This document shows positions 1,854 to 64,000 of a stretch of 64,000 nucleotides of DNA, one piece after another; the stretch's first letter is position 1, and every line of letters starts with the position of its first letter. The DNA is from Liolophura sinensis (Eukaryota > Mollusca > Polyplacophora > Chitonida > Chitonidae): NCBI RefSeq assembly GCF_032854445.1, contig NC_088295.1, forward strand, positions 90,107,836-90,171,835. The letters are read 5' to 3'. The position numbers were made by a program, and so were the translations under genes. The notes beneath the pieces are model-generated. The model did no database searches, had not been told where the DNA came from, and was given only the letters and a program-made list of their open reading frames with translations.

Positions 1854-2839
1854 AGCCTTACAGAGATATCACAGGGGCGGACAGACTAAGAAATTTACAA
1901 AATACACCTGTACAAGAGAAAAATCCGTCTAGTGTATTCCCGGCTAAACTCATCTTTTGTTTGAGATGGAATTTTATTTTGCTTGGTATACCGGTATTTT
2001 CGGATTCACGGTTGGAGACCGTTTACTGGCCTCCATGAGTGGCCTGACCACTCACGGAATTTGCTGTGTAGGCCTTCTAAACGCTCGTCAAATATGTCAC
2101 CACTCTAACAAAGGGGGCGCTGNNNNNNNNNNNNNNNNNNNNNNNNNNNNNNNNNNNNNNNNNNNNNNNNNNNNNNNNNNNNNNNNNNNNNNNNNNNNNN
2201 NNNNNNNNNNNNNNNNNNNNNNNNNNNNNNNNNNNNNNNNNNNNNNNNNNNNNNNNNNNNNNNNNNNNNNNNNNNNNNNNNNNNNNNNNNNNNNNNNNNN
2301 NNNNNNNNNNNNNNNNNNNNNNAAAGGGGGCGCTGTATGCGACTGGCAGGGGCCGATTCACAAAGCCAGATTTGACCTAAGTCAAAAATTTTAGATCTGA
2401 TTTTAGAGCTTTATTTTGAGTCCTGTAAATTAAACTTTTAACCATCTCATCAATGATATCGTAAGACAAATGTTTCAAAATTTCAATTTTCATCACCGGA
2501 AATTAAACATGGTGACAACGTTTCAATTTTGATTTAAGTCAGAAATGTATTTGTGGAATCGGCCCATGATTCTCAACCAGTGAGGTCGGGCGTTCGACCC
2601 TCAGGGGCATCTGCCCCTGTCCGTGCATTTAATGCACAGATATCCCCTCCCGGACGACTGGATCTCCAGTTAGACTTCCCTGAACAGTGGAAATAACAGA
2701 TGTGGAGTAACCACTCCATCATATCCAAATTGGACATGCAAGATGGTCGCTACCAGACCGCGTTGTTTCTTCATTCTGTTAGATCTGATGCTTTTGAAAA
2801 TCTACAAATGTTTTTTTTTTTTTTGGTGATGATGAAGAC
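1854..2839. other. gene-free stretch containing the assembly gap
   Basis: No gene recognised. It contains 200 Ns. The segment around 2575-2700 (GTTCGACCCTCAGGGG and following) has the look of a decayed tRNA-derived repeat head, but I cannot assign it to a family. Confidence 0.4.
2123..2322. other. assembly gap (200 N)
   Basis: Exactly 200 undetermined bases. Both edges carry the same AAAGGGGGCGCTG string, so a tandem or dispersed repeat probably spans the gap and its real length is unknown. Reading frames drawn across it are meaningless. Confidence 0.99.
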
Positions 2840-2889
2840 AGAGAAGATTTGCCAACAGTGATTGGTAATTTGACCGACACCTGATTGGT

Positions 2890-3412
2890 TGGACCAGTGA
2901 GACATATGAGAGGTATGTGTTCAATAAAAGGGATCAACAGCCAAATGAGTACATTGATGCATATGTTACAGTGCTCCGTATCTTTGCAACCACTAGCAAC
3001 TTTTGTAACTGCCTACATGACTCCTTAATAAAGGACAGAATAGTACAGGGCACAAATGGAATAAACTGTCGCAAAAGATTATTACAACATAATCTCATTC
3101 TCGCGCAGTGCATCGACATCTGTCGAAGTAATGGAGGCGCCATCAACGCAACTTAAGGCAATGGGTGGAGACAGTGATCAAGTTAACAGGCTAGCGCGGA
3201 AGCAAAACAAGCACAGAAAATTCAAATCCATGGGCCGTAACTCGGGACAGTCAAAACAGAAAGTGCCTCGTGGAAAAATGATGTGTAAGTTTTGCGGCCG
3301 TCGTCGCGAAAAAAAAGAAAGAGTCATGAATTATGGCAAAAATCACTTCGAAATAAAATGGTCCCAACGCTTACAAAGGAAATCGTGTCCACAGTGTCAT
3401 CTCAGACTCTGA
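2890..3412 (+). pseudogene. gag fragment of the Ty3/gypsy element
   Basis: The translated segment starting near 2890 has the pattern of invertebrate gypsy Gag (a YIDAYVTVLR-type helix, then KDRIVQG). A second frame from about 3131 continues with a Lys/Arg-rich stretch and one CxxC half (CKFCG, near 3286) of a probable CCHC zinc knuckle; the His and last Cys are not in frame. The change of frame near 3150 and loss of the knuckle show decay. Gag normally packages the element RNA; this copy cannot make a full one. Assignment is by pattern only. Confidence 0.7.
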
Positions 3413-47286: not shown

Positions 47287-47347
47287 CCTCAGTTGTGGGT
47301 TTTTTTCCACACCGCGGGGTGTATGTGTGTATAGACGAGTGTGATAT

Positions 47348-47587
47348 AGTATAACCGTATAACAGTATAGGGCAAAAAGAGAGAAAAAAAAAGAGGCAAA
47401 ACGTCGGCTTGTAAAGTCGAGTGGGACAGCTCGAAAAGAGCTCCCGGGCGCCAAAACGGACCAATGGGTGAGCCGGATTTGCCCCAAAACTGCCCAATGG
47501 GGGGCCCGCAAAACGGACCAATCAGCGTGCGAGAAGAGGTTACGTAAGAAAAAAACGAACCAATCAGCGTGTGGTGAATTTCCGCGT
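47348..47587 (+). repeat. left terminal inverted repeat
   Basis: Pairs with 63721-63956 over its whole length, from AGTATAACCGTATAACAG to GTGAATTTCCGCGT, with scattered single-base differences and small indels (240 against 236 bases). It contains four CCAAT boxes and TTACGTAA. Confidence 0.95.
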
Positions 47588-47604
47588 ATCTCAGGTACAA
47601 AAAG
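47461..47604 (+). promoter_or_regulatory. left TIR promoter: four CCAAT boxes, bZIP site, TATA-like box
   Basis: CCAAT occurs at 47461, 47494, 47518 and 47560; the last two are in CCAATCAGCG, a strong NF-Y type match. TTACGTAA (47540-47547) is a palindromic C/EBP- or PAR-bZIP-type site. GTACAAAAAG at 47595-47604 could serve as a TATA-like box. The start codon of the zinc-finger exon is at 47685. All but the TATA-like box lie within the TIR and so are mirrored at the right end. Confidence 0.65.
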
Positions 47605-47684
47605 ACAGGTGCAGCAGTAGTAGATCACTTCACCCGAAGACACCGACCGACCGAGCGAGCGAGCGACCGAGTAAACAAGCAACG

Positions 47685-48119
47685 ATGGATCAAGAGGATT
47701 TCGAGGTTAATATGGAGAAGAAGACGTTGGAGGAGAAGAAGACGGCGAAGCTATTTACCTGCGAGGTGTGTGATCGAGGATTTACCCGACGTGATAGCTG
47801 GCGACGTCATCACCAAACACAGCACGGCGATAAGGAGAAAAAGAAGAAGACGGAGAAGTATTTTTGCCGGGTGTGTGCCCAGCATTTTACCCTGCGGCGT
47901 AACTGGCTCCGACACCAGCGGACGCATCACCAGCCCCAGACAAACACAAGATTCACCTGTCCGACCTGTGACCGGGCGTTTTTTCGCCGAGAAAATTTGA
48001 TCCGCCATCAACAGCGCCATGGCAACAAACGAGAACGTGTGTGGGATTGTGAAGACTGTGGGAAGTCTTTCTACCGGTTGTGGGATTGGCGGACCCATCA
48101 ACGTGGGAAACACGGCTCG
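47685..48119 (+). CDS. four-C2H2 zinc-finger exon, probably spliced to polymerase
   Basis: ATG at 47685 follows a GACCGACCGAGCGAGC-rich leader. The 145 residues begin with an acidic/Lys-rich stretch and hold four C2H2 fingers: CEVC...HHQTQH, CRVC...HQRTHH, CPTC...HQQRH and CEDC...HQRGKH. The exon ends after a serine codon at 48119, where TCG/GTAAGT is a strong donor in phase 0; read on without splicing, the frame stops at 48176. The fourth finger (KSFYRLWDW) resembles the finger inside the polymerase frame near 50710 (KSFPKLWEL), which supports one joined protein. Fingers probably bind DNA or protein, perhaps recognising the TIR (inference). Alternative: a separate short zinc-finger protein. 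Confidence 0.8.
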
Positions 48120-49668
48120 GTAAGTTCTTTTTTTATTATTTTATTTTATTTTTCTCCACCCCAAGCAGCAGGTTGAGTGACCTACTAACCCACGAAGACG
48201 CCGCTTGATTATGGAGGTTGAAAAGCCACTATATTCCATGAATGGTCGGTTAGCTCAGTCGGCAGAGCGTTGGGCTAATGACGCGAATGTCACGGGTTCG
48301 AGCCTCATATCAGCCAGTGGACATTTTTTCATTTTTGTTGGTGGGCATTGATTTTTTTTTCATTTTCGTTTCTTTGCATACTATTTCGTTTTAAATAACG
48401 ACGAGTATGTTGAATTTGGGGATAGTCTTTGAAGTCCAAATGTTGAATCATGTGCATGTATGAGTAGTTGCTTTCCGCGTTCAGCGTTGGTCATCTCAGA
48501 CTTGGTGATAAAAAGGGTCCGTTTCCAAAAAAAAAAAAAAAAAAAAAAAATCATGCGCACAATAAATGTACATGATTTGTTTGTTTCAGGCTGGGGATGA
48601 GTTAGGGGGAGTAATTTGCTTCTTGAAAGTTAATTTAAGACAGTAAGAGCTATCTCATGTTACATGTTTGTAACAGTATATGAAAAAAAGTATAAAAAAA
48701 CTTCTTTACTGGATCATATGCAATAAGACATGCTGCATTTCATTGCTGAAAATTACTATGCAGCCGATCAAAACAAAAAACCACGTGTCCAAACAAAAAC
48801 CACGTGTCAAAGCAAAGCACAGGTGAGAACGATATGTTTCCTGAACAATGGTGAACGGGAATACCTATCTGGATGGTTCCTATGTTTTATGTATTAAAAA
48901 AAAGGGACTGGGTCAGTGTGTCAGTGTGTCATGCTAGGGCTGCTATCTATCGGAATGGTTCCTATGTATTATGCATTAAAAAAAATTTTTTTTAGCGGAT
49001 TGACGCTTCATTTTAATTAGTAGATTACCGTATAAAGTAGTTGTCTATCGGTCACCTTCAGACGTTGTTGTTGTTTCCAATTAATTAATATTACGTAATA
49101 TTACGCTTCGTATTCGCTAGATTTCTTATGGAAATAACAGTAGTTTTAGTTCAATATATTTAAGGATAGTTGTGTCTTTTATAAGTTTGTAACTCTAGTA
49201 AAGCTAGATAGAAAGCCTGAGTAGCTTAGAGGATATTTCCTTATGTATTTCGTAGTAGAAATCCACGAATGTGTGCGATGTCAAATGTATGTAAACAAGG
49301 GGGATAACTCCTGATGGAATACGCTTAGCAGGGGCGACTACTTTTGTTGGAATAATGGAAATAAGGGGCATAACTCTAAATGTCAAACGACAATACGTGT
49401 CTGGAAAGAGTAATATATAGTCATTTTCTTTATTTTTTGTTCCAAAACTGTATAGGGGTTTTGCAGAGTTAACAATTGTATCAGTATATATATCTATATA
49501 TATAGATTTATTTCATTTAGTTCATATTTGTGTAAAGCAAACTCATGTCACAATTCATTTAAACACATTGTATGACTTTATTTCACTTAATTTACAATAT
49601 CCCATGAAAATTAATTATGATTTGTTATGACCTGGGTTATAACGTCTACACCCTTCTATGTTACAGAG
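48120..49668 (+). other. putative AT-rich intron between zinc-finger exon and polymerase
   Basis: Starts GTAAGT and ends near ATGTTACAG. About 1.5 kb, much more AT-rich than either exon. It carries a tRNA-like sequence (48244-48316), a run of about 23 A (48528-48550), and at 48904-48941 a block that is the inverted copy of 61322-61359. No coding frame recognised. Confidence 0.7.
48244..48316 (+). tRNA. tRNA-Ile(AAT)-like gene, possibly degenerate
   Basis: The 72-base segment GGTCGGTTAGCTCAGTCGGC...CAGCCA closely follows animal tRNA-Ile(AAT). D arm GCTC/GAGC pairs, the A box is TAGCTCAGTCGG, the anticodon loop reads CTAATGA with AAT, and the B box is GGGTTCGAGCC. The acceptor stem (GGTCGGT with ATCAGCC) has a mismatch and wobbles, and the anticodon stem TTGGG/CGCGA has one clash. 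It may be a working tRNA, a pseudogene, or a SINE head. T-rich sequence (ATTTTTTCATTTTT) follows within about ten bases and could end polymerase III transcription. Confidence 0.7.
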
Positions 49669-52600
49669 ACCTGTTTCATCTACCACCACCACCACCACCG
49701 ACGACAACAAACCCAGCACGAGTCAAGCTCAAGTGAGTTTAGCGGGGGCTGCCTCGTTGAAAGAAGAAAGAAAAAACAAAAGAAAAAAAGTCCAACGAGC
49801 CAGTTCGAGCCCGACCCAGTACAGCCTCACGAGGCTGTCTTGCCGAGCGGTGACAGTGACGTGCGGGAGTTGTACCAGCGGTATTGGCAATCGATCAGGA
49901 CGTATTTCCATCGCCACAAACCAATTCAAGACTGCTATAATTACCGACTGAGTGATCTCGGTGCTATCCCAGCCTATGTAGACGAGATTTACGAAGACCA
50001 GCCGACTGCTTTCACTATCAATTACAGTTTTGGATATATCCTCCGCCACAAAGAGACGGGTCAGGTGCGGTATTATTACCCGAGCACCAACAACACCCGA
50101 GTACTCGACGCACCGTACCGCGTGGCGAGTCGGGCTGACCTGCGAGGATTCCACACCCAGCATCTCCTCACCCAAGACCCGCTTACCTGGGCCCAAAAAC
50201 AACGCCCCAATACGAAATGGACCGTCGACCTCATCACCAACGTGCTGTTTTTCGTCCACAAACTCCCCCATCAGCCTATCGGTAAAGGTGGGGTAACGTT
50301 ACCCTCTTACCTGAAAGGAAACAAGGGGCTACACACGTTGGTGGGTGGCGATAACGGTCCTTACAGGGACTATTTGTGTTTGTTTCGGTGTCTGGCCGTC
50401 CATCTAGACCAGGTCAACCCCAATAACTGCGAACGCCAGGCTGGGGTGTATTACCGCAGGTATCTGGAGGAAATGGAGATGGAGCCGAGGTATTTCCGCG
50501 GAGTACCCCTCAGTGCGCTGGACACGGTGGAAAGCCTGTTTCAAGTGAACATTCAAGTCTACCAGCTCATCCCCATGGACAGGTCGTACTCAGCACAACT
50601 CATTCACCGCAGTGCCGAGCGCTATTCTACACCTACCCTGCGGTTAAACCTGTACCAGCGGCATTTCAGCTACATCAAAGACATGGGACGTTATGCTCGA
50701 TCTTTCACCTGCCAGGTGTGTCAGAAGAGTTTTCCGAAACTGTGGGAGTTACGACGGCACGGTCAAACGTGCACCGACGCCATTCGACGAAAGTACCCGG
50801 GGGGTGTCTTCCGCAATCAGCCCACCATTTTCGAAACGTTGGCGGACATGGGGATCGAACTCCAGGACGGTGACGACGGCATCTTCCCATACCGAGCGTG
50901 TTACGACTTTGAGGCGTACTTGGCTCCGGTGAACCCGGTGGACGATGCGGCGACTGCCTCGACGGAATGGACGGCTCAACACATCCCCATGAGTGTCAGC
51001 GTCAACTCTAATGTACCGGATTACGACCAGCCCGTGTGTTTCATCTCCACCGGCGATCCCCAGGCACTCGTCGGGGATATGATGGCTTACCTCAACACCA
51101 TCAGCGAGATCAGTAGCGCCTATCTCCACGAGCGTTATGCTTACATCCTGGACGCCTTAGACGAGCGGATCGATCCCGACGAGAAGAAACCGTCTTACAC
51201 GCGCCGAGTGCGGGACAGATTCGTGACCTATATGGACCAACTCCCCGTCCTCGGCTTTAACTCGGGTAACTATGACCTGAACTTAATCAAACAACAGCTT
51301 TACCCCCACCTGGTCCAGAGCGGTGATTTGGAGTATGTGATTAAGCGGAACAATAATCACATGGCCCTCGCCACACCGCAGCTGAAATTTCTGGACATTC
51401 GGAATTACCTGGCCCCGAATTACAGTTACGACAAGTGGGTGAAAGCTTACGACTGTCACGTGACCAAAGGGAAATTTTGTTACAGCTACATAGACTCCCT
51501 GGCCCGGCTGGAGGAAACCACACTGCCACCGCAGCATGCTTTCGACAATGATCTCACCCACCAGCCGTGCACGGACGCAGAGTACAAGACCTTACAGACG
51601 GTGTGGCGAGAGCACGGCATGCGGACCGTCAAAGACTTGCTGCGGTGGTATAATAACCTAGACGTCATTCCCTTCATGGAGGCTGCGGAGAAGATGTCGG
51701 TGTTCTACCGAACCATGCATGTGGATGTCTTCAAACACTGCATCAGCATACCAGGGCTTACCCTCCGCTACTTATTCCATGATTTACGCTCCGTGTTCAC
51801 CCTCGTCGGTGAGAAAGACAAAGACATGCACGATTGCCTCAAGAAAAACATCGTGGGTGGGCCGAGTATCATTTTCCACCGCTACCACGAACGAGGTGTG
51901 ACCCGTATACGGGGTGGAAAGCTGTGTCAGCGCATCGTGGGATTCGATGCCAACGCGCTGTACCTGTACTGCCTGGCCTCACCTATGCCGGCAGGTCACT
52001 GCGTCCGTTGGCGCCGTCAGGACGGGGGAGAGAAGTTCGTTCCCTCCGGCACCGCCACCCGTCTGGCTGAAAAATGGCTGGACTGGAAGGGACAGCAGCT
52101 GGGGGTGTCGATCCGGCACCGACTCAATCACACCGAGAAGCGGATCGGTGATCGACAACTCCCCGTAGACGGGTTCGCCTATATCGACGGACAGCCTACT
52201 GTGTTTCAATTCCACGGGTGTTATTTCCACTATCACGGCTGTCACCTGAATCACCCTCGCCCGGGGAAGGTGTGCTACAACGAGCGGCGGGGATTAACCC
52301 CCCAGGACTTACGGCAGGAGGTGGATGCGAACGACGCATACATTCGCTCCCAGGGCTATCCATTGGTAACGATATGGGAGTGCGAGTTCCACCGCCAATG
52401 CGCGACAAACCCAGCCTTACGGGACTTCCTACAACAGTACGGTTTACCCCCGTCACAGCGACAACCCAAGACACAAGCTCAGCTCATGGAGGCTGTCATT
52501 CAAGGTCAGTTGTTTGGATTTGTGGAATGTGACATCCACGTGCCGGACCACCTCAAAGCGGACTTTGCCGAATGCCCACCCATCTTTAAAAACACCGAGG

Positions 52601-53632
52601 TGAGTCGGGCTGATATAGGCCCCACCATGGCAGAGTTCGCGGCTGTGAATGACATCATGCCCACACCCAGGCGTATGCTGATCGGGAGCATGTTTGGGAA
52701 GCAAATTCTGCTAGCCACACCTCTACTCCAATGGTATCTCGGTCGGGGATTGGTCGTCACGCACGTCTACCAAGCGATGGAATACACACCGGAGCGAGCG
52801 TTCGAATCCTTCGCAGACGCCGTCACCCAAGCTCGACGGGAGGGGGATGTCAACCCCACCAAAGCCCTGATCGGAGAGACGATGAAGCTGTTGGGGAATT
52901 CAGGTTATGGAAAAACCATCACCAATCAAGACCGACACGTGGATGTCAAAATCTGCGATCTGGCAAAAACACGAAAATTACTGGCGAGTGTTCGGTGTCG
53001 AACCGTCGACCCCATCGACGAGACCACCTTTGAAGTGACGAGTAGCAAGAAAACCATTCGCTACAATCTCCCCTTGCAAATAGGGTGCATGGTCTACCAG
53101 TATGCCAAACTCCGCATGTTGGAATTTTATTACGATTTCATGGCTCGTTTTTTCGACAAGGCGGATTGGCAGTACTGTGAGATGGACACAGACTCTGCTT
53201 ACATGGCTTGGTCCGACCCAGACTGGGAATCCCTCGTCAAACCCGAGCTGCGAGCCGTGTACGAGACCGAGCGGGATGCGTGGTTACCCCGTCGCGACCA
53301 TTACGACCACGATAAGCGCACACCGGGGCTTTTCAAAGTCGAGTGGACCGGTGATGCCATCGTCAGTTTGTGTTCCAAGACTTATTATTGTTACGGCATC
53401 CAACACCAAAGACAAACTCTCCTGCAAAGGTGTGAGTGCACGAGGTGTGGACAAGGCCGTGTACCTCTCTGTGTTGCGCAATCACCAAAGCGCGAGTGGT
53501 GTGAATCGGGGGATGCGGATGCGGGGGAATACGATGTACTCGTATACCCAACACAAAGACGCATTCACATACTTTTACGGAAAGCGAAAAGTGCTCCCCG
53601 ACGGGGTGAGCACCACCTATTTAGATCTGTAG
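49669..53632 (+). CDS. polB: protein-primed family B DNA polymerase
   Basis: Replicates the element. About 1,300 residues. Exonuclease motifs: YDFEAYL (near 50902), GFNSGNYDL (51253) and YNNLDV (51648). Polymerase motifs: A as DANALY (51945), B as KLLGNSGYGKT (52884), C as DTDS (53185), then SKTYY (53371). The N-terminal region has a conserved DYLCLFRCLAVH block (50365) and a C2H2-like finger (CQVCQKSF, 50710). The upstream frame opens at 49627, but the likely start is by splicing: CAG at 49664-49666 would give the wrong frame; acceptors ending at 49668 (CAGAG) or 49716 (CCCAG) give the right one. Near 53400 the frame shifts by one base; the conserved C-terminus, ending at the stop at 53630-53632, is in the second frame, while the first runs on without similarity to 53757. 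Either decay or a sequencing error. Confidence 0.95.
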
Positions 53633-53697
53633 AACGGTGCTATGGATACTCTACACACCCGGCTCCTGTGCTCTTGTGCTCTTGTGATACTTCCCAC

Positions 53698-53734
53698 GGC
53701 CCTTTTCAGGGCCAACCAACTCTTTCCGAAAGAG
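53698..53734 (+). terminator. histone-type 3' stem-loop with downstream element
   Basis: GGCCCTTTTCAGGGCC (53698-53713) is a six-base-pair stem with a TTTC loop, exactly the metazoan replication-dependent histone mRNA 3' signal. It is preceded by CCCAC and followed by AACCAAC, and about 15 bases later by GAAAGAG (53728-53734), as expected for the purine-rich histone downstream element that pairs with U7 RNA. It begins 66 bases after the polymerase stop, on the coding strand. No histone gene is present nearby. Confidence 0.85.
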
Positions 53735-53914
53735 TACTTTCTCAATCTAAGCACTAAAAAAAAAAGAAAAAAAAAGAAGCCCCACACCAGACACAGTCTT
53801 CCCATTTTTTTTTTAATTGTACAATTTTTTCATGTGTTTTATCATTCGCAGTGGTACGTACGTGAAAAAGTTAAAAACGTCTAGCGGGGGGCGGCGGGCC
53901 GGGAGCCGTAATAG

Positions 53915-54073
53915 CCTGACACACTGACCCGACTTGCCGTGCCTGCTACATCGTCATACATTGTTGCCGAGCGGCGCCTTGCCGGTATACGGCAGACGGC
54001 CTGGTAACAATGTATGACGCAACAATGTATGACGGTGTAACAGGCGGTGACTGGGTCAGTGTGTCAGTGTGCT
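53915..54073. repeat. imperfect inverted repeat between convergent genes
   Basis: Left arm CTGACACACTGACCC and GTCATACATTGTTGCC is matched, inverted, by GGCCTGGTAACAATGTATGAC...GGGTCAGTGTGTCAG on the right. The centre has TGCCGGTATACGGCA. A second ACAATGTATGAC copy makes the right arm longer. It lies between polymerase and protease ends, where it might stop transcription or hold a replication-related hairpin. Confidence 0.75.
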
Positions 54074-54111: not shown

Positions 54112-54117
54112 AATAAA
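54112..54117 (+). terminator. AATAAA poly(A) signal, + strand
   Basis: AATAAA in ATCATAATAAAGAA, about 480 bases after the polymerase stop; a back-up or alternative to the histone-type 3' end. Confidence 0.4.
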
Positions 54118-54166: not shown

Positions 54167-54172
54167 TTTATT
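54167..54172 (-). terminator. AATAAA poly(A) signal, - strand
   Basis: TTTATT on the + strand reads AATAAA on the - strand, about 100 bases beyond the protease stop at 54270. It could end the long - strand late transcript. Confidence 0.5.
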
Positions 54173-54269: not shown

Positions 54270-54843
54270 TTACAGTCCATGGGTGTGGAAAAAAAACGAG
54301 GGATGAATCCCAAACTGACGATCCACCCAATCGAACACCCGCAAGTCATTATCGTAGGTCGTGCACGCTGTGTCCAACGTGTGTACAATAGCATCCATGG
54401 GACGGCCTCGAGCTCGCTGGGTTAAGTAATACACACAATATTGACCGCACACGGTCGTGTCCAGACTCTGCAGCCGCCGATCGTTCCACGTCCAGTGGTG
54501 TGTTCCCCGGTTAAGCCAAGCGGTAATATCGGGTAGAGGGGTGGGAGTCCGTAGGAATCAAAGTATTCGCCCCGGAGATGGGGTGGATTGGACCACTGGT
54601 CTATGAAGACGGCGACCCAATGTCGTCCTGGGCGAAGGCACGTGTCTGTGTTAATGATGCAGGCCCAGCGGGTCCAGGGCATCCTAGGGCGGGGCATGAG
54701 GGTCGTGAGGGGAGTGAGAGGCGTGAGGGGGGTGAGGGGAGTGAGGGGAGATGATCCCGAGGGTAGACACCACCTCCTGCCCCCACCACAGCCCGGGTAA
54801 ACACGTCTGTTTGTAGCACACGTCGCAATTGTACCGTGTCCAT
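54270..54843 (-). pseudogene. adenain-type cysteine protease, frame interrupted
   Basis: Expected role: processing of virion proteins, as adenoviral protease does. The ATG at 54841-54843 opens MDTVQLRRVLQTDVFTRAV and VYPRDHLP. The middle frame has GRHWVAVFID (catalytic His) and EYFDSYGLPP (acidic residue), and a third frame has VCGQYCVYYL (catalytic Cys) and continues to the stop at 54270. So the family's parts are in order but in three frames: one change lies in the CT-rich run about 54690-54780 and the other near 54530-54545. Total span fits the usual length of about 190 residues. The start overlaps the extended capsid frame. Decay or sequencing indels are both possible; the CT-rich run is a likely slippage site. 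Confidence 0.85.
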
Positions 54844-54866
54844 GTTGTTGTTTGTTTTTTGGGTGT

Positions 54867-56176
54867 TCAACTGGCGAAGTCGCAGAGCACGTTTCGGCTT
54901 TGTCTATTTCTATGATATTGCTGAATTCAGCGTAGCACACCACGTTAATGGTTTCCGGCAGTGGTTTGGCAAACCGCATCTCCAGGCGCAAATCCCCTTT
55001 TTGTACCAGGTTCAGTTGGTGGTCATCGTGGAGGCTAGGGGTCAAGTCGAAACAAAACAGCGTGTGGCCTTCGGCGAATGTGGTGCGCTTGATATTGTTT
55101 CCCTCGTCGTGGAACGCTTTCCCCGTGTGGGTAAAGAGGTTCATGTACGTGCGGATGAAATTCTCGTTCTCAAAGTCGGGTGTCAGGGGCTTGGTTGGAA
55201 TCTGACGACCGCCGACGTACAAGGCGACGAAGTTTGTGTAGTAGTGTCGGAAACGAAACGGGTTTTTAGTGTAGTCCCCGTCAAAAGCCTTGTTGCTCAC
55301 ACACCCCACCACTAAACGTGTCGGTAAGCTGCCCAGAAATAGGTTTTGTTCATTGATGAGGGTGTGACCTCTGGGGACAGAGAAATACTTGGTCAGCACG
55401 CGGCGGATTGGGTACTTGGCAGGAGCTTTGGCCAAGGCTTTCAAATGCCCCAGTTGCACACCGCTGGTGATTTTCACTTTACGCACAAAGATCAAGACCT
55501 CCTCCAAGCGAGTCTTGTAACCGGGAGCGGCTTCATCGGACATCAAAGCAAACGAATCCTTAGCCGGGGTGAGACGGATGCGGACCGTGACGTTGTTGAG
55601 CAGGTGTCGGTGTTGCAGGAACATGTCACAATGCAGGCGACCCAGCATGTCAACCGACCGACTTTCAGCCGTGCAGTTCAGCCGATCGACAAACCCGGCG
55701 TTGGTGTCACTCATCGTGTCAAACTTTCCTGGGGTGTCCGCATACCACAAGGCAGCAGACAGCTGGCTCTTTTTAGCCTCTTTACCGTAAGACAACAATG
55801 TCTCCAAGTAAGCCCGGTATGGGTACATGTTGGTGGACGGCGTGATGAGTTTATCGTTCAGGGAGACGTCGACCTGTCGCCACATGGATTGTATCCACAG
55901 GTTAGTCGGAGCCACCTTCTTGTCAGCCGCCACAGCCGTCCCGTCCCCGTTGAGGATTTTTGCCTTCACGTACAGCATGGTGTTGGCCAAGTCCAAGTAA
56001 GTGTCTGCGTCAGCGTTGGTGATGACAAATTCTACAGGTCCCACATCACTCAGGCTGGCGATGGGGCTGTAAGCATCCCAGCGGCCTTCTCGAACGCTGG
56101 TGTCGGTCGGGGGTAAGGTCCACAAATCAAACTCACTGCTGACGGACGGGCAGCATTCGGGGTGGGGAAGAGCCAT
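54867..56176 (-). CDS. major capsid protein, double jelly-roll (hexon-like)
   Basis: Main shell protein of the predicted virion. From ATG at 56176 the frame starts MALPHPECCPSVSSEFDLW and has the hallmarks of Polinton major capsid proteins: WIQSMWRQVDVSLNDKLI near residue 93, YPYRAYLETLLSYGKEAKKS, a central RLTPAKDSFALM, and a YAEFSNIIEIDK block close to the end. About 435 residues is the usual size. Just after EIDK, near 54899-54901 in a T run, the frame changes by one base: the family-like ending (RNVLCDFAS) and a stop at 54867-54869 are in another frame, whereas the original frame runs on through the protease region to 54422, giving a false capsid-protease fusion. Upstream, 31 bases separate it from the small basic protein. 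Confidence 0.93.
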
Positions 56177-56207: not shown

Positions 56208-56672
56208 TTAGCTGAAAATATCCGGTGGATTCAGGGCATTCGATGTGGTTCGAGCTTTGATGTGTCTTCTTCTGGGCTTGACGGCACGTCTTTTAAGTCC
56301 CACGTGTCGGTGACGAGTGGGCGTGACGCGCGGTGTCTTCCGTTTTATAGGCTCACCCAGTAACCGCTGTCGGGCGTAGCGACTAGCTTTGACCAGCAGC
56401 TGTTTTCCAGTCGCCAAACCGCGTCGTTTCAAAGCCTGTTGTGGTGACACGCCCCCACTCAGCACATCCCCCACGACTTGCAGTCCTGTTCGTAACGCCG
56501 TTTTGCCCAGTGCTTTCACAGCCGGCGAGGTTAACAAGGGTTGTGGGAGGAGTTTGCTGAGACCGCCCAGCAAACCGTGACCGCGCTGGACAGCCACACC
56601 CCGAAACACAGGTAACCCACCTCCGCCGGCTTGTTTGGTGTAATAGTCGATGTAAGCCTGGTGTGATGCCAT
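56208..56672 (-). CDS. small basic glycine-rich virion-type protein
   Basis: 154 residues. N-terminal YIDYYTKQAGGG and FRGVAVQRGHGLLGGLSKLL form a glycine-rich amphipathic segment, then GKTALRTGLQVVGDVLSGG, and a strongly basic tail (RRRHIKAR). This architecture recurs next to the capsid genes in Polintons and adintoviruses and recalls adenoviral membrane-lytic or core proteins (pVI or pX); the exact homology is not certain. Its ATG overlaps the stop of the penton gene as TAATG, suggesting translation by termination-reinitiation. Likely internal virion component (inference). Confidence 0.75.
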   Translation of the reverse strand: MASHQAYIDYYTKQAGGGGLPVFRGVAVQRGHGLLGGLSKLLPQPLLTSPAVKALGKTALRTGLQVVGDVLSGGVSPQQALKRRGLATGKQLLVKASRYARQRLLGEPIKRKTPRVTPTRHRHVGLKRRAVKPRRRHIKARTTSNALNPPDIFS

Positions 56673-57445
56673 TATTGCAAGGGTAAAGCACGCCGCTGTC
56701 GAAAGTGAAGTGTCACCACCACTTTACCGCGTTCAAATGCGACGGATCGACCCGTGTCGTCCCTAATATCAATGTCCACCGTCGAGAAATGTTTGGACTG
56801 CACGGGGATGTATTCCACGTGTTGGAATGTCTTGGAGACGTGCTCCCCATACTGCCCTTCCCTGGTAACCGTCCGCAACAGCGGGGCCAACGTGTCCCCC
56901 ACCACACGCGGTTCGATAATGTCTGTGTACACGTACAGCGTGGGGGTGCTGATCGTTAAATCCTCGGCACCGACATACATGAGGTCCGCCGGTCCCATGA
57001 GCCATCCGTACGGTAAATTCATGAGTTGCATTAGCCGTGGGCTGAAACCAAGGCCCAGTGGTTTCTCAAACCGCACGCTGTATTTCCGCTGCATATCGTC
57101 GAACTCAAACGTTAAGTCCCCGGCGTGCTCCTGGAGATCGCGGATCTCTGTCTCGCTTAACAATTTGGTCAACCCCCAGGCCAGGTCTTTGGGTGTCGGG
57201 TAGTAGCCGGCTGGTAATATGAGCTTATGCGTAGCGTGGTGCGAGTCTTTTGGGGAGTCTATGGTATACCACACTTCACCTGACCGCACGTTAAACCAGG
57301 TCCGGGGATACTGTATTTCGACCAGCCCACATTCCCAGTCACCTGTCAAATGGATGGGGCGGGGTAATTGGGTGGTGAAACGCGTCAAGGTATTGTTGGG
57401 GAAGTAGTCCAGCGAGCTGTTACTGGGTAGCGTCACGTAAAACAT
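56672..57445 (-). CDS. minor capsid protein, penton-type single jelly-roll
   Basis: 257 residues, intact. The start FYVTLPSNSSLDYFPNNTL and then FTTQLPRPIHLTGDWECGLV with EIQYPRTWFNV is the well-conserved N-terminus of the Polinton minor capsid (penton) protein, which fills the five-fold vertices. The C-terminal part (VEYIPVQSKHFSTVDIDI and VVVTLHFRQR) also fits. Sixty-four bases separate it from the next gene upstream; that gap contains ATTAATTAAATACA on the coding strand, a possible TATA-like element. The stop overlaps the next start as TAATG. Confidence 0.92.
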   Translation of the reverse strand: MFYVTLPSNSSLDYFPNNTLTRFTTQLPRPIHLTGDWECGLVEIQYPRTWFNVRSGEVWYTIDSPKDSHHATHKLILPAGYYPTPKDLAWGLTKLLSETEIRDLQEHAGDLTFEFDDMQRKYSVRFEKPLGLGFSPRLMQLMNLPYGWLMGPADLMYVGAEDLTISTPTLYVYTDIIEPRVVGDTLAPLLRTVTREGQYGEHVSKTFQHVEYIPVQSKHFSTVDIDIRDDTGRSVAFERGKVVVTLHFRQRRALPLQ

Positions 57446-58624: not shown

Positions 58625-58661
58625 CTGAGGCGATAGACTGTGTGTTCAAAGTTTTATGACG

Positions 58662-58685
58662 ACACACTGACACACCGACCTAGTC
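58662..58685 (-). promoter_or_regulatory. dispersed ACACTGAC motif upstream of the 136-residue gene
   Basis: ACACACTGACACACCGACCT matches the motif at 61322-61359, with one or two differences. Located 38-61 bases upstream of the start codon, so a shared promoter element is plausible. Confidence 0.4.
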
Positions 58686-58817: not shown

Positions 58818-59435
58818 TTATGACTTGGGGAGATAGGCGTGTTGAATCTCCCCGGGGAAAATGTGGGTGCGAAGTCGCAGGTGATCGGGTGTGGTTTGCT
58901 TGAAATCCACCAGCAAATACCCGTGAGGTTCAGCCGTGGCATCTTCAAAGGCCTCGCGCACGTACTGTGTCCGCCCTGGAGCCATTTGTTTAGCGATCGT
59001 GGTAATTTGGGATACATCTCGCGGGTTTTTGAACAGCACCAAGTAGTGTGCGTTCAGACTGATGGTCCGATGGTCTTTGGTTTTGTTAAACAAATTCTGC
59101 ACGATGTACACCACGCTGATATTGCGGTGGTGACTGCCTTTGGTGAAGAGTTTTGTCACGCGATCGTCGGCTTCAGCCATCAAATCATCCACGACGACTA
59201 ACGTCCGCTCCCCCGGGTCGAAACTGGACGGGCTGGGCACACCTTCTTCAAACTGAACGTGAGGTAACGTGGTGTACAATGGCTGCCACTCCCCGTAACA
59301 CCAGATGATGCGTTGTGGGGGTGGATGAATGAGAGCTGGAGCGTGTTCCACTAACCGTTTCACAAACACAGACTTCCCAGATCCCGTCGGGCCGCTGACA
59401 ATGCAGGTAAAGGGATGCTCCCATCGCGTGTCCAT
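58818..59435 (-). CDS. FtsK/HerA-type DNA-packaging ATPase
   Basis: 205 residues, intact. Walker A GPTGSGKS at residues 15-22, Walker B TLVVVDDL with the acidic pair at 83-84, and a sensor-like VVYIVQNLFNK block. A C-terminal FKNPRDVSQITTIAKQMAPG segment is typical of A32-like viral packaging ATPases. It should pump the element DNA into capsids. Nine bases separate its start from the upstream membrane-protein stop. In the 190 bases after its stop, CCACCAGCC repeats occur without a gene. Confidence 0.93.
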   Translation of the reverse strand: MDTRWEHPFTCIVSGPTGSGKSVFVKRLVEHAPALIHPPPQRIIWCYGEWQPLYTTLPHVQFEEGVPSPSSFDPGERTLVVVDDLMAEADDRVTKLFTKGSHHRNISVVYIVQNLFNKTKDHRTISLNAHYLVLFKNPRDVSQITTIAKQMAPGRTQYVREAFEDATAEPHGYLLVDFKQTTPDHLRLRTHIFPGEIQHAYLPKS

Positions 59436-60114: not shown

Positions 60115-61236
60115 TTAAATACGTTTCACGTCCGTGGCCGGGACCCAAGAATTAAAGCTGGGTGGATAACCGACCCACTTCACCCAATAGTACAGTTTCC
60201 CTCGCCGCCGCTCCCTTTTTAAGATCTTCTCCACCTGATAAAACTTATCCACCGCGGCTGTCACCGGTTGGAGTTCGGTTTCGTAAAACGTCCCTAGCAA
60301 TTGATCCCCGTTCAAATCCTCCAGTGTGTACACAGCAGGCTGTCGAGGGTGGGAGCGGACGATACGGAACATTTCCGTGCTCCAATTCGGCAGGTATGAT
60401 TTTTCAAATTTCCCTTTCACTTTACTGATACGCACGAGATCACCGGCCCGATACCGGTGGACCGAGCGTTTGTGTGTGGATGGACCGTACAAGACTTGCC
60501 GGACTTCCTTCTGGTTCTGGGGAGTGACGTCGATAGGGGCTCGTCGTATGCTTCGGTGGTAGGCTTGATTGTAACCGCGAACCAGGGCCGGTAAGGCGTC
60601 CAGGTAGCGCCGAGTGTTGTGAGCGGTGAAATATTTGTACATGCGACCTTTCAAAGTGCGGTTGAACCGTTCTACCACGGAGGCTTTGGTTTCGTTAAAC
60701 GTGTGAAAGAAAAACACCCCTTTGTCCTTTAAAAAGGCTTGAAACGGTCTGTTCAGAAACTCTTTCCCCTCGTCCGTTTGCAGGTACAACGGTCGGCGGC
60801 CCGTCTTGAAAATCTGTTGAAATGCCTCGATCAAACGAGCCCCGGTTTTGGCCCGGAGTGGGATCACCCAGGCATACTTGGAGAGCACATCGATGCAGGT
60901 CAGTAGGTAACGGTTGTTGTCATTCTCTTTGGTGAACGCTGTCATGTCGACCAGGTCCGCCTGCCACTGACTGTCCATACCCCCAACCACCACTCGGTTA
61001 CGCGGGTAATGGCGGCGTGCAGGTCGGTGGAGTGTGTACGTGTCCTGCTGAGCCAGCCAAGCCGACACGTGGGTTCGACTCACTTTGAGTCCCTGTTGTC
61101 GAGCTGCCTTGAGCAGGGGTTGAACCCCGCTGTAAGCCGCTGGACTGTCCGGGTTGTAATACAAAGCATGGAGAGCGGTATCGATCGGGTTTGAACCACG
61201 GCCCGGCGTGATTGATTTTTTTTTCGTGCGAGGCAT
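60115..61236 (-). CDS. int: retroviral-type integrase with chromodomain-like tail
   Basis: 373 residues from MPRTKKKS; the frame is open 49 codons further, but the ATG at 61236 lies just downstream of a TATA box and starts the conserved part. A helical N-terminal region (residues 15-60) precedes the RNase H-fold core with Asp94 (WQADLVDM), Asp155 (LQTDEGKEF) and Glu189 (ASVVERFNRTLK), the D-D-E triad. A small beta domain follows (YRAGDLVRISKVKGKFEKSY). The last 42 residues (FYQVEKILKRERRRGKLYYW and VKWVGYPPSFNSW) form a chromodomain-like fold that could read histone marks and guide insertion. It cuts and joins element ends to host DNA. Intact. Confidence 0.95.
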   Translation of the reverse strand: MPRTKKKSITPGRGSNPIDTALHALYYNPDSPAAYSGVQPLLKAARQQGLKVSRTHVSAWLAQQDTYTLHRPARRHYPRNRVVVGGMDSQWQADLVDMTAFTKENDNNRYLLTCIDVLSKYAWVIPLRAKTGARLIEAFQQIFKTGRRPLYLQTDEGKEFLNRPFQAFLKDKGVFFFHTFNETKASVVERFNRTLKGRMYKYFTAHNTRRYLDALPALVRGYNQAYHRSIRRAPIDVTPQNQKEVRQVLYGPSTHKRSVHRYRAGDLVRISKVKGKFEKSYLPNWSTEMFRIVRSHPRQPAVYTLEDLNGDQLLGTFYETELQPVTAAVDKFYQVEKILKRERRRGKLYYWVKWVGYPPSFNSWVPATDVKRI

Positions 61237-61304
61237 AGTCCGCCACGTCGTCCTTGCTGCTTGGTGTCTGTTGTGTGTAATGAGTGAACCCACCTCAGAC
61301 CGCC

Positions 61305-61312
61305 TATATATA
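61305..61312 (-). promoter_or_regulatory. TATA box of the integrase gene
   Basis: TATATATA reads the same on the - strand and lies 69 bases upstream of the chosen integrase ATG. The dispersed ACACTGAC block follows immediately upstream. Confidence 0.7.
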
Positions 61313-61321
61313 GTATAGAGT

Positions 61322-61359
61322 GGCCCTAGCCTGACACACTGATACACTGACCCAGTCCA
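61322..61359. promoter_or_regulatory. dispersed motif, reference copy
   Basis: GGCCCTAGCCTGACACACTG then ATACACTGACCCAGTCCA. It is nearly the reverse complement of 48904-48941 (about 34 of 38 positions), and shorter forms occur at 53915-53930, 54049-54075 and 58662-58685. All five are inside the Polinton; I saw none outside it. Confidence 0.6.
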
Positions 61360-61427
61360 TATAAAAAGAAAACACAAAAACACCGGGGATGGATTCCATA
61401 GTAAGGTAACAGTATTAGTATTATTCT

Positions 61428-63706: not shown

Positions 63707-63846
63707 CTTTTATCCTATCCACGCGGAAATTCACCACACGCTGATTGGTTCGTTTTTTCTTACGTAACCTCGTCTCGCACGCTGATTGGTCCGTTTTGCG
63801 GGCCTCCCATTGGGCCGTTTGGGGGCAAATCCGGCTCACCCATTGG
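63707..63846 (-). promoter_or_regulatory. right TIR promoter: CCAAT boxes, bZIP site, TATA-like box
   Basis: On the - strand the order is CCAAT boxes (ATTGG on + at 63842, 63809, 63785 and 63744), TTACGTAA (63760-63767) and, just inside the TIR, GATAAAAG (63707-63714) as a TATA-like box. The PC4-like start codon at 63501 lies about 200 bases downstream. It mirrors the left-end promoter. Confidence 0.65.
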
Positions 63847-63956
63847 TCCGTTTTGGCGCCAGGGAGCTCTTTTCGAGCTGTCCACTCGACTTTACAAGCC
63901 GACGTTTTGCCTCTTTTTTTCTCTCTTTTTTCCCTATACTGTTATACGGTTATACT
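63721..63956 (-). repeat. right terminal inverted repeat
   Basis: Inverted copy of 47348-47587, ending CTGTTATACGGTTATACT. Differences from the left TIR are scattered single bases and small indels. Confidence 0.95.
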
Positions 63957-63960
63957 ACCC

Positions 63961-64000
63961 ATCCACGCGGAAATTCACCACACGCTGATTGGTTCGTTTT
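63961..64000. repeat. direct repeat of inner right TIR at window end
   Basis: The last 40 bases are identical to 63717-63756, 244 bases earlier, and are joined to the TIR terminus by ACCC. So a second TIR-like copy begins here in the same orientation. Confidence 0.95.

Follow-up and report, generated by a model that had tools for sequence, protein, structure and literature searches.

A host-type histone 3'-end signal lies behind the polymerase and RING finger genes of a chiton Polinton family

In animals, the histone stem-loop is bound by SLBP, U7 snRNP pairs with a purine-rich element downstream of it, and CPSF73 cuts between the two; the purine core is AAAGAG in mouse H2a and the pairing core of U7 is CUCUUU (as set out in a section of PMC7026596). 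Histone mRNAs are presented as a unique class ending in a stem-loop, all other eukaryotic transcripts being polyA-tailed, in one passage of PMC12775136. The two kinds of signal may meet on a single gene: an excerpt of PMC9756948 describes human H2AC18 as having both a stem-loop and a polyA signal, with an AATAAA that overlaps the downstream element. The signal described here shares with the metazoan replication-dependent histone 3' end the stem, the loop, an ACCA-like flank, an AAAGAG core at the usual distance and a distal motif seen at many histone genes of the host, but it ends a transposon DNA polymerase B (polB) gene and a RING finger gene, and no histone. It resembles H2AC18 in that one gene has two alternative 3'-end signals, and differs in that the AATAAA of polB is ∼410 nt away.

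The element in the window (the whole stretch of 64,000 nucleotides analysed) is a Polinton, with polB, an rve integrase, an ATPase, capsid genes and terminal inverted repeats (Table 1). It has in common with the Polintons/Mavericks of echinoderms, amphioxus, cnidarians and a tubeworm the polB with C2H2 fingers, the chromodomain rve integrase, the ATPase, the capsid genes and the terminal inverted repeats; a 6-bp target-site duplication is a further feature of Polintons/Mavericks. Two of the frames on the minus strand we take to be the major and minor capsid proteins, the penton-type name of the latter being given from gene order. The polymerase had 2341 homologues, the best at 71% identity among the 120 matches listed; the named homologues among these matches included many echinoderm and amphioxus proteins, several of which join C2H2 fingers and polB in a single protein. 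In an alignment of 20 sequences the polB frame is conserved to about residue 1257 (∼53397) and is then frameshifted, and other copies exist with the main polB and the C-terminal piece in one frame. Since polB is frameshifted and the major capsid frame runs on into protease remains, the window copy is not intact. Several smaller features were seen in the same DNA. Directly past the right end, at 63965-64000, the inner terminal repeat starts again, which points to an insertion of tandem or composite type at the edge of the window, and a tRNA-Ile(AAT)-like gene at 48243-48317, with an A-run ∼200 bases on, lies in the predicted zinc-finger/polB intron and is probably a tRNA-derived SINE insertion. 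The motif GACTGGGTCAGTGTGTCAG recurs, partly inverted, within the element (48906-48930, 54049-54071, 58661-58685 and 61335-61357); beside it near 53941-54045 stands a palindrome whose MIR4387-type match is weak, an arrangement also found in copy L153. Positions 2123-2322 of the window are a run of 200 N.

Table 1. Features of the Polinton and of its histone-type 3' end (positions are those of the window).
Feature	Position	Strand	Evidence
Left terminal inverted repeat	47347..47587	+	Repeats I1-I3, I5; 96-100% complementary to right end
C2H2 zinc-finger coding segment, probable polB first exon	47685..48119	+	Pfam zf-C2H2 in ORF 47571-48176; donor GT at 48120 (predicted splicing)
DNA polymerase B frame	49627..53757	+	DNA_pol_B_2 1.5e-9; candidate acceptor AG 49665-49666
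Conserved polB C-terminal segment, other frame	53396..53632	+	Ends TTYLDL-stop
3'-end cassette common to RING gene of other copies	53691..53822	+	blastn 53691/53692 to 53814-53826, 86-93% identity, 10 RING loci
AACCA flank	53714..53718	+	Sequence; identical in several host histone genes; predicted cleavage position directly 3' of AACCA
GAAAGAG, histone downstream element with AAAGAG purine core	53728..53734	+	Sequence
TCTAAGCAC, distal motif common to host histone 3' ends	53746..53754	+	Sequence; single occurrence in window
AATAAA, possible alternative polyadenylation signal of polB	54112..54117	+	Sequence
AATAAA of convergent structural genes	54167..54172	-	Sequence
Major capsid protein frame (presumed name), continuing into protease remains	54422..56176	-	46% identity to MCP-like frame of tubeworm Polinton L102
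Minor capsid (penton-type) protein (presumed name)	56672..57445	-	40% identity to L102
Packaging ATPase	58818..59435	-	Adeno_IVa2 above cut-off, Pox_A32 below; 62% identity to L102
rve integrase with chromodomain	60115..61383	-	rve 3.1e-11, Chromo 4.7e-10
Right terminal inverted repeat	63721..63957	-	Inverted repeats paired with left end

The histone stem-loop is GGCCCTTTTCAGGGCC at 53698-53713 (+), with a 6-bp stem and a 4-base loop. GAAAGAG is separated from the stem by 14 nt, a spacing that falls within the 10-20 nt expected for the purine-rich downstream element. The Rfam model RF00032 (Histone3) matched 53693-53739 (+) over its full length (model positions 1-46) at 32.4 bits, with an E-value of 5.7e-8 for 201 bases and of 1.8e-5 for both window strands against 4227 families. 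This score is slightly below the RF00032 gathering score of 34, which is why a default Rfam scan, whose one entry for the window is a tRNA, missed the hairpin; at E values up to 3 the window contains no second match to Histone3. The original prediction of a histone-type 3' processing signal behind the polymerase is borne out by the exact core, the AACCA flank, the GAAAGAG element and the full-length model match. Its placement 66 bases after the polymerase stop holds when counted from the stop at 53632 (65 bases between), in the frame of the conserved C-terminus TTYLDL, but fails for the long polB frame, which stops at 53757, past the hairpin. Among 122 proteins examined, only the window's own polB frame had a tail encoded by the hairpin.

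We compared this signal with the histone 3' ends of the host. Exact matches to GGCYCTTTTCAGRGCC number 192 + 92 (284) in the 609-Mb genome, and the reversed pattern has 0 + 1. Eight loci read in a tandem array (C1:57.94-58.03 Mb) are H3 or H1 genes, and in seven of them the hairpin lies 25-32 nt after the stop (126 nt in L105, which has a broken frame), compared with 65 nt for polB in the window. The H2A genes L126 and L127 also end with the hairpin, and the host H3, H1 and H2A ends resemble the element in their downstream arrangement, with a similar purine element; no H2B or H4 gene with the exact core was seen among the loci read. The host end at L107 reads CTTCCAAC-GGCCCTTTTCAGGGCC-AACCAAAACCTCGAAAGAG...ATCTAAGCAC and the element end reads CTTCCCAC-GGCCCTTTTCAGGGCC-AACCAACTCTTTCCGAAAGAG...ATCTAAGCAC. 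In form the Polinton signal resembles the histone ends of the host and is nearly identical to one of them: 52 of 57 aligned bases agree with the best-scoring of 17 host ends. The distal motif is present as TCTAAGCA in 9 of the 17 host ends and as AAGCA in 15. Histone3 scores were 24.0-35.6 bits for nine host genes (four of them below 34), 28.2-36.2 for five polB-type copies including the window, 39.0 for three RING copies and 30.2-36.7 for three divergent loci. The gathering score was exceeded by polB copy L164 (36.2) and the three RING copies (39.0), while L153, L157 and L177 were below it; L173, which has a changed stem base, gave no Histone3 match at E<=0.1. L173 apart, element and host signals cannot be told apart by score. 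For the host U7 RNA, RF00066 gave no match, but it also gave none in 14 control genomes, and a pattern search gave two matches against four in the control. Several host downstream elements (L104-L111 and L143) are palindromic (GAAAGAG..CTTTC) and are followed by TCTAAGCAC or a variant of it; the palindrome and TCTAAGCAC may extend the downstream element in a lineage-specific way.

Searched with polB, the genome yielded 55 matched stretches, with 34 of the 1164 candidates scored. The C-terminal part is reached in 26 polB copies, and the 3' flank was read in all 26: the core is exact in 19, has one change in three (L156, L160 and L173), and the region is missing in four (L154, L158, L159 and L165). 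Absence of the stem-loop behind polB in close relatives had been named beforehand as an outcome that would speak against the signal; the hairpin is instead found in 22 of the 26 copies. L159 and L165 have common neighbouring differences and a similar junction, so a polB subfamily without the signal seems to exist. With four of the 26 copies lacking the region, two of them subfamily-like, polB either can do without the signal or gained it late. Among 21 carriers from the polB list (L173 left out; gaps and insertions uncounted), pairwise divergence was lowest in GAAAGAG (0) and the core (0.006), was 0.021 for the coding end and 0.032 for the spacer that precedes the core, and reached 0.058 over the 79 bases that start at 53752. 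In the core, all 22 carriers together show two substitutions and a single 1-base deletion (the deletion in L160; L173 has the changed stem base). GAAAGAG has no substitution in 21 copies, and L152 has a 1-base insertion inside it. The copies selected by their hairpin include altered elements, GAAATAG in L115 and AAAAGAG in L149, and L141 has lost the element. The copies are close relatives (a few per cent) and young, so that low divergence in 16 + 7 bases is weak evidence of selection. L117 and L142 are deletion derivatives in which an N-terminal polB segment runs directly into the last codons of the gene; they keep the signal, have different DNA after it and are possible non-autonomous elements.

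The same signal is present on a second gene. A genome search with the 132-bp cassette (40 of 125 candidates scored) showed that several of the 40 scored cassettes form pairs that face outward at a distance of 5.5-7.4 kb, such as C8:46608157(-)/46615504(+) and C7:7108150(-)/7113618(+). In other copies of the family the zinc-finger segment and polB are separated by a RING finger gene, which is head-to-head with polB where both were seen (e.g., L145). Its protein, with a proline-rich N-terminal part, is 397 aa long in L149 (Pfam zf-C3HC4_3, 2.5e-11). Ten RING loci have the hairpin (L114, L133, L134, L136, L137, L145-L147, L149 and L151), 47-221 nt after the stop, some of the frames being decayed. 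The RING protein is 99% identical over 84% query coverage to a Liolophura sinensis (chiton) protein, as expected from the earlier suggestion of a molluscan host; the database search scored the 7982 candidates sharing most words and gave four matches at E<=0.001, all from Liolophura. The window copy has only 1.5 kb from zinc fingers to polB, with no RING match and one cassette. We also surveyed 39 loci with 41 dispersed exact-core sites, taken from the first 100 listed of the 284 and apart from the histone array; because the loci were chosen by their hairpin, the survey gives context and not frequency. Of the 41 sites, 16 follow polB or a deletion derivative of it, 10 follow RING genes, nine follow H3, H1 or H2A genes, three adjoin RING-like remnants of divergent elements, and three are others. 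The core is present in L112, L124 and L144, for which no gene context was assigned. The divergent loci with the signal beside RING-like remnants are L122 and L123 (judged by eye) and L128, and their flanks are divergent as well. In L128 the signal (36.7 bits) has two neighbours in head-to-head order, a polB of 34-42% identity that breaks off short of its 3' end and the decayed remnant of a RING gene (tblastn E 0.004). L122 also contains a metazoan SRP RNA gene at 2807-3102 (146 bits).

The family carries a host-type histone cassette behind polB and, in other copies, behind the divergently oriented RING gene, and we consider it probable, with good though not full confidence, that the mRNAs of both are processed by SLBP and U7 in S phase. 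Cleavage, the lack of a polyA tail, coupling to S phase and an advantage to the element are predictions. Since these elements are present in host form, the polB and RING pre-mRNAs should be cut and stay tail-less. Host SLBP would bind the stem-loop in the nascent RNA, U7 snRNP would pair with GAAAGAG, and the endonuclease would cut a few bases past the stem, after AACCA or ACCCA. The predicted products are non-polyadenylated polB and RING mRNAs that would accumulate mainly with histone mRNAs in S phase, and the advantage may be that polymerase is made when nucleotides and host replication factors abound. If cleavage failed, polB could still use the AATAAA ∼410 nt on. An AATAAA is found 402-425 nt after the core start in nine of 11 polB copies checked (568 nt in one, and none within 1 kb in one), so that a polyadenylated polB form is also possible. 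For the structural genes on the opposite strand there is an ordinary AATAAA, and no histone signal in the window. Histone ends on the replication and RING genes, together with polyadenylation of the structural genes, suggest an early programme tied to S phase.

Several observations were counted against SLBP/U7 processing, among them the polB copies that lack the region, the altered cores and elements, the missing match of L173 and that of two tubeworm Polintons. Because the zinc fingers are coded ahead of the main frame with a possible donor at 48120, polB is probably spliced, unlike the canonical core histone genes, which are intronless (PMC5011920). In 10 of the 11 polB copies checked, the kilobase that follows the core contains an AATAAA. 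RNA folding of the window copy gave the expected stem and a second hairpin that covers GAAAGAG by pairing it with a preceding CUCUUU; GAAAGAG can be sequestered in this predicted fold, and the base that completes the pairing is private to the window copy among the aligned copies.

The strongest of the alternative explanations, which we still regard as unlikely, is that an ancestor took up a short host histone 3' piece by recombination, that the piece was duplicated within the element and has no function, and that polB is polyadenylated at AATAAA. The stretch is indeed short and host-like, the AATAAA is within reach in the ten polB copies just mentioned, four of the 26 copies lost or never had the region, and many copies are broken (31 of the 55 polB-matched stretches have in-frame stops inside). 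A functionless piece, however, does not readily explain the coding-strand position behind two genes, 65 nt past the stop for polB in the window and 47-221 nt for RING, nor that the signal is kept in divergent copies with divergent flanks (L122, L123 and L128), that the core and the purine element are the least diverged part, and that the RING cassettes outscore the nine host genes tested.

It is much less likely again that the hairpin mainly terminates transcription between polB and the convergent structural genes, limiting read-through or double-stranded RNA with no role in the cell cycle. The hairpin does sit where polB and the capsid genes converge, but the cassette of the RING gene is antisense to polB and placed between polB and the zinc-finger segment, and a plain terminator needs neither histone-specific flanks nor a U7-type element. 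Such a separator role is compatible with SLBP/U7 processing as a side effect.

The weakest explanation, a chance hairpin or the leftover of a whole histone gene inserted beside polB, has next to no probability and, as stated, is refuted by the recurrence of the signal in 22 of 26 polB copies. The bare 16-mer does occur alone in IMG/VR contigs, but 692 Mb of random sequence gave no match with flank and element, and there is no room for an inserted gene when polB coding extends to 65 bases before the hairpin. In the chance controls, the 16-base consensus with up to two mismatches was matched in 10 of 100 shuffled versions of the window (mean 0.10); the site itself has no mismatch. The 692 Mb of first-order Markov sequence contained 148 stem-loops of loosely histone-like form, among which neither the exact core nor a flank plus purine element occurred. 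The bare 16-mer was present in 101 IMG/VR stretches; A[AC]C[AC] followed it directly in none of the 101, and the histone-flanked pattern was found in none. Bare 16-mers reached at most 19.4 Rfam bits (20 of the 101 stretches scanned), so ∼13 of the bits of the window hairpin come from its histone-type flanks. IMG/VR searches for relatives of polB (with a single sequence and with an alignment), of the ATPase and of the major capsid protein found none, and IMG/VR is therefore uninformative on other animal Polintons. The idea that the hairpin is a fragment of an inserted histone gene does not hold as it was worded, and no histone Pfam domain was found in the 12 ORFs of the element that were scanned; a likely origin is that an ancestral element of this Polinton family took up a histone 3' end alone.

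The signal suggests that the element may borrow the host machinery for making S-phase messages. Taken further, and with confidence only a little better than even, a virus-like element would have captured the host histone 3'-end code for its polymerase and for a RING protein (a putative E3 ligase) and not for its structural genes, its early genes would be expressed as non-polyadenylated, S-phase-coupled mRNAs, and these would be the first genes outside the histones whose 3' end is truly of histone type. We know of no earlier non-histone gene with such an end. If this is true, the histone 3' signal is open to capture and reuse, here on two genes of a mobile element; SLBP and U7 have a natural non-histone substrate; and there is a direct molecular link between Polinton replication and the host S phase.

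No report of a Polinton with a histone-type 3' end was found among the open-licence papers listed or searched in the text, nor was one known to the author of the original prediction, and the Polinton papers PMC8097293 and PMC11071308 make no mention of histone, polyadenylation or stem-loop. As for the signal outside the chiton family, two Polinton contigs of the tubeworm Escarpia laminata (L102 and L103) gave no hit to Histone3 at E values up to 5, so it is not a feature of Polintons in general. In L103 an AATAAA lies about 104 nt after polB. Both tubeworm contigs sit in a GTDB bacterial endosymbiont MAG, where they represent host contamination.
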